NCBI GenBank assembly: GCA_013215385.1
Contig: JABSOY010000029.1
Location: 1 to 34,612, forward strand
DNA from: Colwellia sp.
Lineage (GTDB): Bacteria > Pseudomonadota > Gammaproteobacteria > Enterobacterales > Alteromonadaceae
Reading direction: 5' to 3'
Length of the DNA: 34,612 nucleotides
Part shown: piece by piece, positions 13,134 through 34,612 of the stretch
Layout: each line of letters begins with the position of its first letter
How positions within the stretch are numbered: position 1 is the stretch's first letter
Position numbers and translations under genes: made by a program
The notes under the pieces: generated by a model
The model's input: only the letters and a program-made list of their open reading frames with translations
The model's database searches: none
Told to the model about the DNA's origin: nothing

Positions 13134-14372
13134 ATGAAATTTACAGACAGAGCTATTAAGGCCTTAAAGCCAAAAGAAAAAGCGTACGTGGTTACTGCCG
13201 ACTCAGAATCAAGAGGGGTCGGCAGACTTCAATTAAAAATATATCCCAGTGGCACTAAAAAGTTTCAATACCAGTTTTTCTTCGAAGGTAAAAAACGAAT
13301 GGAAATTGGAACCTATGATTCAATGTCATTATCAAATGCCCGCAAAAAAATGTCAGCATTATCTGAGTTACTACAAGACGGACTAAACCCAAAAGAAGAA
13401 AGACAGCAAAAGGCTGTTGAGGTTGAAACTTTCAACCAAAAGCGAACACTAAAGCAATTAGTAAAAGACTTTTTACTTTCTATTGAAGGGCAATGGGCTG
13501 AATCGTCAGTAAGAAACGCAACAAGCGGGTTTAAAACCGACTTATTACCTTTTATTAATGATGACCTTTATCCAGACCAGTTCACACCCTGTTTAGCCAG
13601 AGACATTATTTACAATGTTTATAATCGCGGGGCAAAAGTAAAAGCAGGCACCTTTAAAAGTTTTCTTCGTTCGTTGTTTAAGTTCGCTATAGATTTCGAC
13701 AATTCACCCGAGCAATTCAAAAAGCCCAACTTATATTCGGTTGTTACCAATCCTATTAATGATATTAATTTAGAAATTCCATTTAAAGCTGGGCAACGGT
13801 GGTTAAGTGAATCTGAATTGAAATCTTTATGGCATTCAGAGCAATTACCTAAAATGATCCATTTATACTTTAAACTTTGCATATTGTTTGCAGGTCAGAG
13901 AGTTTTGGAGCTATACCATTCAAAAGTTAATGAATATGATTTTAATGAAAATATTTTTACAATACCTATTGAAAGAATAAAAATTACAAAAAAAGGGGAA
14001 CATCTTTTACCTATTTCAAAATATGCCAAACCACTAATAGAAGAACTGATGTTAATACGAGGTAAAAGTGATCATATTTGGCCTCATAGGTCTGATAATA
14101 ATAAACCAGCAGAAATCACCAGCATTCAGAGAGCTTTTCGTCGTTATTGCAAAGACAACAAAATACCTCCATTCACCCCCCGAGACTTAAGGCGAACCTG
14201 TAAAACTTTGATGGCAAAGAGTGGAATGAGCAAACAATATAGAGATTTATTGCAACAGCATACTAAAAGTGACGTGGCGAGTATTCATTATGATCGTTAC
14301 GATTACTTAAAAGAAAAGCGTGAAGCTATAGACCACTGGACATCATACCTGAATAGAATATTGAAGCTGTGA
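13134..14372 (+). CDS. int: Tyrosine recombinase (phage integrase)
   Basis: 412 residues. The N-terminus (MKFTDRAIKALKPKEKAYVV) is the DUF4102-type arm-DNA-binding domain of P4-like integrases, followed by a core-binding helical region and a C-terminal catalytic domain. Visible catalytic elements are Arg256 in AGQRVLEL, the Lys region ERIKITKKGEHLLP, Arg353 in RDLRRT, His376 in LLQQH and Tyr386 in HYDRYDY. The first His of the usual HxxR box is Arg350. This is seen in some relatives and need not inactivate the enzyme. It integrates the phage at attP, probably just upstream. It is transcribed in the same direction as the three-gene cassette after it. Confidence 0.92.
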   Translation: MKFTDRAIKALKPKEKAYVVTADSESRGVGRLQLKIYPSGTKKFQYQFFFEGKKRMEIGTYDSMSLSNARKKMSALSELLQDGLNPKEERQQKAVEVETFNQKRTLKQLVKDFLLSIEGQWAESSVRNATSGFKTDLLPFINDDLYPDQFTPCLARDIIYNVYNRGAKVKAGTFKSFLRSLFKFAIDFDNSPEQFKKPNLYSVVTNPINDINLEIPFKAGQRWLSESELKSLWHSEQLPKMIHLYFKLCILFAGQRVLELYHSKVNEYDFNENIFTIPIERIKITKKGEHLLPISKYAKPLIEELMLIRGKSDHIWPHRSDNNKPAEITSIQRAFRRYCKDNKIPPFTPRDLRRTCKTLMAKSGMSKQYRDLLQQHTKSDVASIHYDRYDYLKEKREAIDHWTSYLNRILKL

Positions 14373-28993: not shown

Positions 28994-30007
28994 ATGAATT
29001 TAAACCCACAAGCAACAACATTCTTGCAAGAATTTGCTTTGCAGTTATCAAAGTCTTACGGCGTTGAAGTCGTCAATAAACAGTTCAACATTACCGGACC
29101 ACAAGAAACCAAATTAAAAGCCGCGTTATTAGAGTCGGTGCAATTTTTAAGTATGATCACCGTAATGGAAGTAGACCAAATTAAAGGCCAAGTGGTTAAA
29201 GTGGGTAACTACAGCATTGCCACAGGTCGTAAAAATGGTGCACGTTTTGTTACCGGGCAAGGCGTTGACGGCCATACCTATGAATTAACTGAAACCGACT
29301 CATGTGCGGCATTAACATGGGCATTATTGTCGGTTTGGGCAAATGCTGGCAATAAAAACGAATTCATGAAAAAGATGAATGCTAATGCTACTCAACGCTT
29401 TGCACTCGACATGTTACGTGTTGGTTTTAATGGTACTTCGCAAGCAGTCGATACCGACCCAGTAGCAAACCCATTGGGCGAAGATGTTAACAAAGGCTGG
29501 CATAAAATTGTTTCAGAAAAAGCCGCTGATCAAATTATGACAGACGCTGTCTATTTTGATGTTGACGGAGCAGGTGACTACAAAACCCTTGATGCCATTG
29601 CCACTGAACTTAAAAACACCCTTATTCACCCAGCATTACGAAACGATCCCCGTTTAGTGGTGTTAGTCGGTAGCGACCTTATTGCTGTTTCACAAACGCA
29701 CATGATGAATGCAGCCGACAAGCCGAGTGAAAAAGTAGCTGCGCAACAAATGAATAAATCAGTTGGCGGTATGCTCGCTTACACACCACCGTTTTTCCCT
29801 GGTAAACGTCTGGTCGTCACTATGTTGTCGAATCTGCACATTTATACACAACGCGGCACTAAGCAACGTAAGTCTGAAAACGTTGAAGACCGCAAACAGT
29901 ACGAAGACAAATATTGGCGCAACGAAGGTTATGCCATTGAAGAATTTGAAGCCTATGCATCAATAGATGAATCAGCCATGAATATCGGGCCTAAACCCGT
30001 AGTTTAA
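28994..30007 (+). CDS. Major capsid protein (gpN-like)
   Basis: 337 residues of the P2 gpN family. Landmarks include AALLESVQFLSMITVMEVDQ, then KNGARFVTGQGVDGHTYELT, the LRVGFNGTSQAVDTDP stretch, a NKGWHKIVSEKA turn, NDPRLVVLVGSDL and GGMLAYTPPFFPGKRLVVTM. The C-terminal SIDESAMNIGP is near the end. HK97 fold; forms the shell. P2 gpN is 357 residues and is trimmed by gpO, here presumably within the first 30 residues. RBS GCGAGCAAAC is weak. Confidence 0.93.
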   Translation: MNLNPQATTFLQEFALQLSKSYGVEVVNKQFNITGPQETKLKAALLESVQFLSMITVMEVDQIKGQVVKVGNYSIATGRKNGARFVTGQGVDGHTYELTETDSCAALTWALLSVWANAGNKNEFMKKMNANATQRFALDMLRVGFNGTSQAVDTDPVANPLGEDVNKGWHKIVSEKAADQIMTDAVYFDVDGAGDYKTLDAIATELKNTLIHPALRNDPRLVVLVGSDLIAVSQTHMMNAADKPSEKVAAQQMNKSVGGMLAYTPPFFPGKRLVVTMLSNLHIYTQRGTKQRKSENVEDRKQYEDKYWRNEGYAIEEFEAYASIDESAMNIGPKPVV

Positions 30008-30084: not shown

Positions 30085-30672
30085 ATGAGCGTAATTCAAA
30101 ATTTTAAAAAGCGTCAACAGCAAAAATCACAGCAAGAACAAGCCAGTGTTGCAGAAAAATTAGCAGATAAAACCGCTAACGAAAAAGCAGAAAGTACCGC
30201 ATTAAGCTTGCTTGCGAGTTTATTAAATGTTCCTCAAGAGCATGCCATTAGCGAAGCAACCAAATATGTTGAACAAAACATTCAGTTTTATCAAGTTGCC
30301 TTTGACCCTGCTGAAGGTAAAGACCGAAGCGTAAAAGCTGAAATTGAAATAAATGAGAAGGGTGACATTACCCAAATCACTGAAGTTGACGAGTTCCAAG
30401 CAGTAAAAGACGAACTGGCCGCAGACTTAGATAACAGTGCTGATAATGTGCAAAGTGCCGCAAGTGATCTCGAATCAAGTGCGACAAGCGTTGAAAACAG
30501 TGCTGAAAAAGTAAGTGATGCTGCCAGTGATTTAGCTTATACCGCTGACGATATTAGCAATGTTACTGACGCGTTAAATGAAGCGACAGCAGAAATAAAA
30601 AAGCCGTCGGGGGTGCAAAAATCCTCCGGTGGAAAGAAAACAACCGAGCAGAACAACAACTCGAAAAAGTAA
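30085..30672 (+). CDS. Coiled-coil head-region protein, and possible N-terminal half of a terminase fusion
   Basis: 195 residues if read unshifted. The N-terminus is Lys/Gln-rich (MSVIQNFKKRQQQKSQQEQA). Residues 60-110 may fold as a small alpha/beta unit. Residues 113-165 are an Ala/Ser/Asp-rich heptad repeat (NSADNVQSAASDLESSATSV, NSAEKVSDAASDLAYTADDI). The tail is Lys/Asn/Ser-rich. Not recognised; P2 has no gene here. At codon 173 it carries A AAA AAG followed by a strong stem-loop, and a -1 slip would fuse it to the small terminase subunit, giving about 422 residues. It may anchor or oligomerise that subunit. Confidence 0.7.
   Translation: MSVIQNFKKRQQQKSQQEQASVAEKLADKTANEKAESTALSLLASLLNVPQEHAISEATKYVEQNIQFYQVAFDPAEGKDRSVKAEIEINEKGDITQITEVDEFQAVKDELAADLDNSADNVQSAASDLESSATSVENSAEKVSDAASDLAYTADDISNVTDALNEATAEIKKPSGVQKSSGGKKTTEQNNNSKK
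30597..30632 (+). other. Candidate -1 frameshift signal A AAA AAG plus stem-loop
   Basis: A AAA AAG (30597-30603) is read in the upstream frame as ATA AAA AAG, the heptamer used by E. coli dnaX. CCGTCGGGGG (30604-30613) and CCTCCGGTGG (30623-30632) form an unbroken 10-bp stem (three G-U pairs) with a 9-base loop. The spacer is zero; 5-9 bases is usual, so the bottom of the stem would have to melt. Confidence 0.6.
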
Positions 30673-31352
30673 AAACAACGGGCGATTCACAATATGCCCC
30701 AAGTTTACATTTACAGCTTATCGAGCTTGAAAGCGACGTAAAACGCTTAAAAGCATTTGCCAGAAGGGCCGATAAAATAGCGTATAAACGCGACGTTTTA
30801 CTGCCGAAATGGTTACCCATAGTTAGCGAATACTTGTTAACACTTGAAAATGGAAATGAAAATGAAATTAACAAAACGCATGACAATCCTCTTTTCAGTT
30901 ATTGCACTATCTGGCTGTTTGACGTCGCCAATCTTAGCCAAGCCATTGACTACGCCTTCCTTGCAATTAAGCACGGTCAGCCCATTGCAAGCAACATTAA
31001 GCGCAAGTGGCCGGGCTTTATTGCCGACACCATTTTTGACTGGGCAGAAACTCAAGCTGAACACGGCAGAAGTATTGAACCCTATTTCGGGCAAGTGTTT
31101 CAACGTGTCGTTAACGAATGGGAACTACCCGAACAAGTTACCGCTAAATTCTACAAGTTTGCTGGTTTGGCGTTACTCAGAACAAAAACAGGCGATGTTA
31201 CCCCATCGCACGTTGGCAACCTCAAGCGGTTACGTGAAGCAGATAAGCTTTTAGAAACAGCCGCGTCACTGCATAAACATGCGCAAGTGAAAACAATAAG
31301 AAACAAAATTGCCATGCGAATTAGGGCGATTACTGAACTTAACGAACAGTAG
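30603..31352 (+). CDS. Terminase small subunit (gpM-like), with no standard start codon
   Basis: The frame is open from 30582 to 31352 and codes gpM-family sequence: SLHLQLIELESDVKRLKAFA, then KRDVLLPKWLPIVSEYL, NPLFSYCTIWLFDVANL, YFGQVFQRVVNEWELPEQVT and the C-terminal RNKIAMRIRAI. The subunit recognises cos and hands DNA to the large subunit. The first ATG, GTG or TTG in frame is TTG 30834, which lies after the conserved LLPKWLP motif and would cut a third of the protein. Two options remain: a -1 fusion with the gene before it (from 30603), or start at ATC 30621 with GGGGG seven bases ahead. I list the fusion frame. Confidence 0.75.
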   Translation, partial: AVGGAKILRWKENNRAEQQLEKVKTTGDSQYAPSLHLQLIELESDVKRLKAFARRADKIAYKRDVLLPKWLPIVSEYLLTLENGNENEINKTHDNPLFSYCTIWLFDVANLSQAIDYAFLAIKHGQPIASNIKRKWPGFIADTIFDWAETQAEHGRSIEPYFGQVFQRVVNEWELPEQVTAKFYKFAGLALLRTKTGDVTPSHVGNLKRLREADKLLETAASLHKHAQVKTIRNKIAMRIRAITELNEQ

Positions 31353-34226: not shown

Positions 34227-34612
34227 ATGCGTTTATCTGGAATGAATTTTAACGTTAACTTGGGCGATATTATGGTCCACGTTGATACCGCGTCACTTAA
34301 TATTACTGACAATAGTGCAGTAAGCCAAACCAGTGGTGTACCCGATGGTTATGTTGACGGTGACGTATCGGCCAGTGGCGAATTGTCGGTCAATGCCAGT
34401 AATTTCAACCTTATTTCAGAAGCAGCAAAAGCGGCTGGTTCATGGCGTGGCATGCAAACATTCGACATTATGTTTTATGCAAAAACAGCTAAAGACGAAA
34501 TGAAAGTAGAAGCCTTTGGTTGCCGTATTAAACTCAGCGATATTTTAGACATAGATAAAAAAGGTGGTAGTGCCTCAATGTTTAAATTGCCGTTTGACGT
34601 TACCGACCCAGA
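34227..34612 (+). CDS. Tail tube protein (DUF2597), N-terminal part; continues at position 1
   Basis: Opens MRLSGMNFNVNLGDIMVHVD, then DGYVDGDVSASGELSVNASN and the AAKAAGSWRGMQTFDIMFYA stretch, characteristic of DUF2597. AGGAGCATAAACC precedes the ATG. The coding frame passes through the 77-base overlap and ends at 139-141. The full protein is 149 residues. See the entry at 1-141. Confidence 0.9.
   Translation, partial: MRLSGMNFNVNLGDIMVHVDTASLNITDNSAVSQTSGVPDGYVDGDVSASGELSVNASNFNLISEAAKAAGSWRGMQTFDIMFYAKTAKDEMKVEAFGCRIKLSDILDIDKKGGSASMFKLPFDVTDP
34536..34612. repeat. Terminal overlap, right copy
   Basis: Identical to 1-77. Removing one copy gives a closed circle of 34,535 bp. Confidence 0.95.

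Follow-up and report, generated by a model that had tools for sequence, protein, structure and literature searches.

The window, that is, the whole 34,612-nt stretch of DNA analyzed (Colwellia sp. contig JABSOY010000029.1, which is contig C23 of the genome in its entirety), represents the genome of a P2-like phage. The large terminase gene is on the minus strand, and the plus strand carries the scaffold gene, the capsid gene, upX, and the small terminase frame. The first and last 77 bp (positions 1–77 and 34536–34612) are an exact repeat, so the contig was assembled as a circle and represents a phage copy that is excised or plasmid-like. An integrase gene is nevertheless present at 13134–14372. 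All features of the locus described here are on the plus strand. The gpN-type major capsid gene (phrog_70) occupies positions 28994–30007, and the next gene, upX (30085–30672), encodes a protein of 195 aa comprising the conserved N-terminus MSxIxxFKKRR, a body of the coiled-coil type predicted to be helical, and a Ser/Lys-rich tail of 22 residues. This tail is encoded past a slippery heptamer, A AAA AAG (30597–30603), which is adjoined by a 10-bp stem-loop (30604–30632). The -1 frame entered at this point (30603–31352; 249 codons and a stop) encodes gpM, the small terminase subunit TerS (PF05944).

The gpM frame is open from 30582 to 31352, and no ATG, GTG, or TTG is found ahead of the TTG at 30834–30836, which lies within the conserved domain and is hence an unlikely start. 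Since upX reads A30597–A30602 and G30603 as ATA AAA AAG, the heptamer stands in phase for a -1 slip. The locus contains a slippery heptamer of the X XXY YYZ type in the phase of upX and overlapping an open -1 frame, as expected for -1 programmed ribosomal frameshifting. The slipped product would consist of 173 residues of upX and 249 residues of gpM, 422 residues altogether. The start-less frame, the phase of the heptamer, and the length of the fusion had all been proposed in an earlier sequence-only reading of this DNA, and inspection of the coordinates confirmed them. In the 0 frame, translation stops at the TAA codon at 30670–30672, 22 codons past AAG. The 37 ORFs of the window (8246 codons) harbor 13 in-phase A AAA AAR sites, only two of which open a long -1 frame, namely the upX/gpM site (249 codons) and a site at 1831 (62 codons); at the remaining 11, the -1 frame runs into a stop within 1–27 codons.

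The gpM frame matched PF05944 with a score of 101.2 bits (curated cut-off 29.4), the match covering residues 46–185 of P0001, and phrog_74 with an E-value of 2e-55. Its structural model was all helical (pLDDT 88, pTM 0.82), with the first helix at residues 2–28 counted from the slip. Searches with this model yielded a single match at E ≤0.001 in BFVD, a terminase endonuclease subunit, and none at this threshold in PDB. The part encoded in the -1 frame is clearly a member of the P2-type small terminases, and its gene is located between the capsid gene and the head-tail adaptor gene.

The upX protein was modeled poorly (pLDDT 61, pTM 0.19) as mostly helical, its last helix (residues 103–171) ending at the slip site. 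Assignment of upX to a known family was rejected: no Pfam match above the cut-off was found, and matches to PHROGs were sparse and weak (19 families, each matched by 1–3 of 22 members with E-values of 0.0002 or weaker). The 15 matches among PDB sequences at E-values up to 1 were mainly designed coiled coils, chemoreceptors, and syntaxin-17. Past the two lysines of the slip site, the 0 frame encodes Pro-Ser, while the -1 frame encodes Ala-Val or Ala-Ile, so that a helix continuous through the fusion junction is plausible.

A tblastn search found the gene pair in two isolated phages, Pseudoalteromonas phages C5a and vB_Psp_PY3. More loci were obtained by scanning IMG/VR and one genome per GTDB species; named genome matches in these scans came from Shewanella (n = 4) and from Pseudoalteromonas, Colwellia, and Rheinheimera (one each). 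After exclusion of L001 and L002, which are repeats of the window, 273 of 275 records remained. In 52 of them, mostly distant gpM and some truncated sequences, the KR-LLPK motif was not recognized by pattern, and these were left uncounted. Removal of records identical over 320 nt reduced the other 221 to 107 distinct loci, including 75 slip-type loci, 31 ordinary gpM loci, and L019, which is cut by the contig edge ahead of the slip position. A locus was classed as ordinary if no in-phase heptamer was found, and therefore the absence of the heptamer in this class follows from the sorting, while the position of its ATG is a finding. The 75 slip-type loci are mutually related and hence do not represent 75 independent events; for some analyses, 26 representatives with less than 85% nucleotide identity in gpM were used.

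All 75 distinct loci with the gene pair contained the heptamer in phase, 62–64 codons upstream of the LLPKW motif, which answers in the affirmative one part of the check proposed in the sequence-only reading, the alignment of homologous gene pairs. The sequence was A AAA AAG in 72 loci and A AAA AAA in three (L178 type), the latter being a synonymous Lys change that leaves the site slippery. The codon ahead of AAA AAR ended in A in every locus (CTA in 37, TTA in 26, ATA in 7, GTA in 4, and GCA in 1), while the share of A-ending codons elsewhere in upX was 42% for Leu, 8% for Ile, 23% for Val, and 27% for Ala. Together with a codon choice downstream described below, this indicates a constraint at the nucleotide level around the slip site. 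The slip was kept even in L182, the most diverged member, whose protein is 55% identical to that of the window and whose upX has only 75 residues. The 0-frame tail past AAG had the same length as in the window, 22 residues, in 62 of the 75 loci.

The start codons distinguished the two classes. Ordinary gpM genes had an ATG 56–61 codons upstream of the motif in 31 of 31 loci, located only 2–10 nt past a capsid-size ORF, which leaves no upX between them. An ATG of this kind, just after the capsid gene, was present in none of the 75 slip-type loci. In 42 of these, no canonical start (ATG, GTG, or TTG) was found ahead of the motif, and in the other 33 such codons were scattered, the most upstream one being 10–37 codons ahead of the motif. 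Since all canonical starts ahead of the motif in the 75 loci are within 37 codons of it, the slip site occupies the position of the start codon of the ordinary genes. Another sample of 295 genomes from the order, drawn separately, included 28 with a gpM match; the motif was readable in 11 of 29 loci, of which 8 were ordinary, with ATG at 57 or 61 codons, and 3, including that of the host genome itself, had the slip and no start. This genome contained one gpM match only, and a second gpM was not found in it. L004 was considered as a natural in-frame fusion and ruled out, since it is an ordinary ATG-initiated gpM located 2 nt past a capsid-size ORF. In another genome of the order, the ordinary gpM match L330 (G216:C1:1681675-1682358) contained one internal TAA and is possibly part of a decayed prophage. 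Comparison of N-termini placed 4 of 21 distinct ordinary gpM N-termini at ranks 1–4 of the 348 matches to that of upX (436 N-termini compared), with E-values of at least 2, and the remaining ones reached down to rank 348. This is at most suggestive that MSxIxxFKKRR could be the displaced ancestral N-terminus of gpM.

The substitution pattern of the stretch between the slip and the motif makes it evident that this stretch is read as protein in the gpM frame and subject to purifying selection. Codons 25–62 past the slip, most of which lie between the 0-frame stop and the motif, had a pS of 0.79 and a pN of 0.18 in the gpM frame (pN/pS 0.22; 26 representatives), and the other two frames contained 112 and 59 stops over the same codons. 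In the overlap of the two frames (codons 3–22 past the slip), dN/dS of the gpM frame was 0.54, and pS was reduced to 0.43. An unusual codon choice was observed there: Ile past the slip was encoded by ATC in 72 of 72 cases, vs 167 of 954 Ile codons further along gpM, and Leu by CTC in 72 of 73 cases, vs 153 of 1763. These bases are required by the 0-frame Ser-Ser (TCC TCN), although AUCCUC may also have a role at the RNA level. SSKK or a similar sequence is found at the end of many 0-frame tails. Both products thus seem to be kept, with selection apparently acting on the unshifted one as well.

Comparison of the loci established the layout of the gene pair, the heptamer, the missing start, and the coding of the -1 frame. 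In the most probable reading, to which we assign a probability of about 0.9, upX and gpM are expressed jointly by a conserved -1 programmed ribosomal frameshift. This had been the central proposal of the sequence-only reading, namely that the small terminase is made as a -1 fusion with a coiled-coil-type protein, and the heptamer in 75 of 75 loci, the lack of a start at the ordinary position, and the purifying selection in the gpM frame all support it. Translation would begin at ATG 30085 with the helical upX, and at A AAA AAG, encoding Lys-Lys, some of the ribosomes would slip back by one base into the gpM frame, producing a TerS of 422 residues with an N-terminal helical arm. Unslipped ribosomes would read 22 further codons and stop, releasing the protein of 195 residues with the Ser/Lys-rich tail. 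Since the slip site stands at the position of the ordinary P2-type gpM ATG, TerS would be supplied by slippage in place of independent initiation. Slippage itself, and its frequency, are matters of inference. The arm-only product may work together with the fusion, and the slip ratio may set the amount of TerS, as suggested in the sequence-only reading, or its assembly.

Three other ways to obtain the gpM product were considered, each of them very improbable. The frame could be changed by RNA polymerase rather than by ribosomes, since A runs can slip in transcription and the resulting frame and product would be identical. However, the run consists of six A in 72 loci and of seven in three, while transcriptional realignment is associated with runs of more than seven A in the part of PMC3711429 dealing with it, and slippage of this kind would need no fixed phase relative to the Lys codons. 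Equally improbable is initiation at the GTG or TTG codons chosen by annotation programs, yielding a shorter TerS. Some ATG, GTG, or TTG does occur between the slip and the motif in the 33 loci mentioned above, and in the database entries for phages PY3 and C5a (L009, 3205–3741, and L010, 3211–3741), where upX is annotated as a separate hypothetical protein, the annotated TerS is 176–178 aa long and starts at GTG (PY3) or TTG (C5a), within the conserved motif or next to it. But these codons differ in position between loci and are missing ahead of the motif in the other 42, starts at the motif would cut into the PF05944 domain and drop the modeled helices 2–28 and 37–53, and the residues upstream of such starts are conserved. 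With the start placed in or beside the motif, the annotated proteins of both phages lack the N-terminal part.

Still less credible is independent initiation at a non-canonical codon by coupling to the upstream gene. The sequence-only reading had named ATC 30621–30623 as an alternative start, and this codon is preceded in the window by GGGGG seven bases ahead and is unchanged in 72 of 75 loci. It is replaced by CTC (Leu) in the other three (L027, L031, and L154), the third bases of GGN GGN ahead of it vary, and its conservation is accounted for by the 0-frame Ser codons; moreover, a start there would leave the heptamer and its phase in 75 of 75 loci without explanation. A-runs are error-prone, but a one-base assembly or replication error splitting a single-frame gene, also raised in the sequence-only reading as a deletion in the A-run, is practically ruled out, because the same frame relation and heptamer recur in 75 distinct loci, including two isolated phages.

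Sequences that could stimulate the frameshift were searched for on both sides of the heptamer. The window stem-loop has a minimum free energy of -14 kcal/mol and a z-score of -1.88, and 10 of 200 shuffled sequences folded as well; it begins directly past the heptamer, and only its inner part is at the usual spacing of 4–5 nt. To the relatives we applied hairpin rules given in part of PMC4066793, restricted here to simple hairpins of 17–70 nt. A hairpin starting 4–10 nt past the heptamer was found in 14 of 26 representatives, vs 6–15 of 26 at five control offsets, and folding z-scores past the heptamer were no lower than at other offsets. Over 50 junctions, the mean z-score was -0.70, with 7 below -2. 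Therefore, the stem-loop noticed earlier does exist in the window, but the relatives do not keep it, and no conserved downstream simple hairpin that could be a family-wide stimulator was found among the 26 representatives compared with control offsets. Some loci, among them L039, L047, and L066, do form a neat hairpin of GGAGGA and UCCUCC at a spacing of 5 nt. Somewhat stronger folding was observed about 60–130 nt past the slip (30657–30727 or so in the window), where a 70-nt segment at +60 had a mean z-score of -1.31, with 12 of 26 below -1.5, and the hairpin rule was satisfied in 15 of 26; the junction and the +60 to +130 stretch were aligned for 19 loci.

Upstream of the site, an SD-like tetramer was present within the 15 nt ending 6 nt ahead of the heptamer in 12 of 26 representatives, vs 0–5 of 26 at 12 control offsets. 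Across all slip-type loci it was found in 32 of 75, and the window is without it. The dinucleotide CC directly followed the heptamer in 70 of 75 loci; according to a section of the review PMC5009743, A_AAA_AAG is most prone to shifting in E. coli when the next dinucleotide is CC. One tRNA-Lys, with the anticodon TTT, was found in the host draft genome, and no CTT anticodon was present among 49 tRNA matches (150 of 339 candidates scored). Decoding by a single tRNA-Lys is linked to the slipperiness of A AAA AAG in the same review.

The search of the literature found no account of frameshifting in a P2-type small terminase, although an unnamed entry in frameshift catalogues, such as GeneTack cluster tables, is possible. 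In tailed phages, most known cases of frameshifting concern tail chaperones, along with some capsid or tail proteins. In the case described here, an established decoding mechanism appears to serve the expression of a known packaging protein in a manner that we did not find described. The heptamer and the single tRNA-Lys logic are the same as in E. coli dnaX, which encodes tau and gamma (parts of PMC3711429 and PMC5009743). In dnaX, however, the slip leads to the shorter product and is accompanied by an SD-like element and a hairpin, whereas here the slipped protein would be the longer of the two, and a conserved hairpin was not found. A possible recoding event has also been reported for the terminase gene of Streptomyces phage Hau3, but in the passage of PMC5009743 concerned it is translational bypassing linked to a UUA codon, rather than a -1 slip into a second ORF. 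Relative to the ordinary P2-type gpM (PF05944, phrog_74), which has its own ATG right past the capsid gene, the slip group is without this start and has its N-terminal arm encoded in another frame.

In this family of phages infecting marine bacteria, frameshifting appears to be the source of a DNA-packaging subunit, and it is kept among relatives down to 55% protein identity. The phages and prophages concerned are those of Pseudoalteromonas, Shewanella, Colwellia, and Rheinheimera. Experiments on the annotated TerS gene of PY3 or C5a would likely use a truncated protein. A broader scenario, which we consider possible at somewhat less than even odds, is that an entire clade of P2-like phages lost independent initiation of TerS, an essential packaging subunit, and uses slippage only. 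Two products of one start would be kept, namely the arm-bearing TerS and a free arm whose tail is itself under selection. The latter would then co-assemble with the fusion via the shared helix, and the slip ratio would fix the oligomer make-up of TerS or the amount of active terminase. Translational setting of the amount or oligomer make-up of TerS thereby becomes testable, as does the driver of slippage where no hairpin is conserved.

A parallel in layout is provided by the tail assembly chaperones of tailed phages such as lambda (gpG/gpGT) and P2 (gpE/E') (PMC3556154), where a morphogenesis gene with a single start likewise gives a short 0-frame product and a long -1 product. What is extended there is a tail chaperone, and here a DNA-packaging subunit. 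The window contains a second slippery site, A AAA AAA at 1831, in phase and just ahead of a TAG (plus-strand ORFs 1574–1840 and 1837–2022). The 62-codon -1 extension that it opens matches phrog_7050 and lies upstream of the tape-measure gene at 2173, and the site looks like a classical tail-chaperone frameshift of the gpE/E' type.
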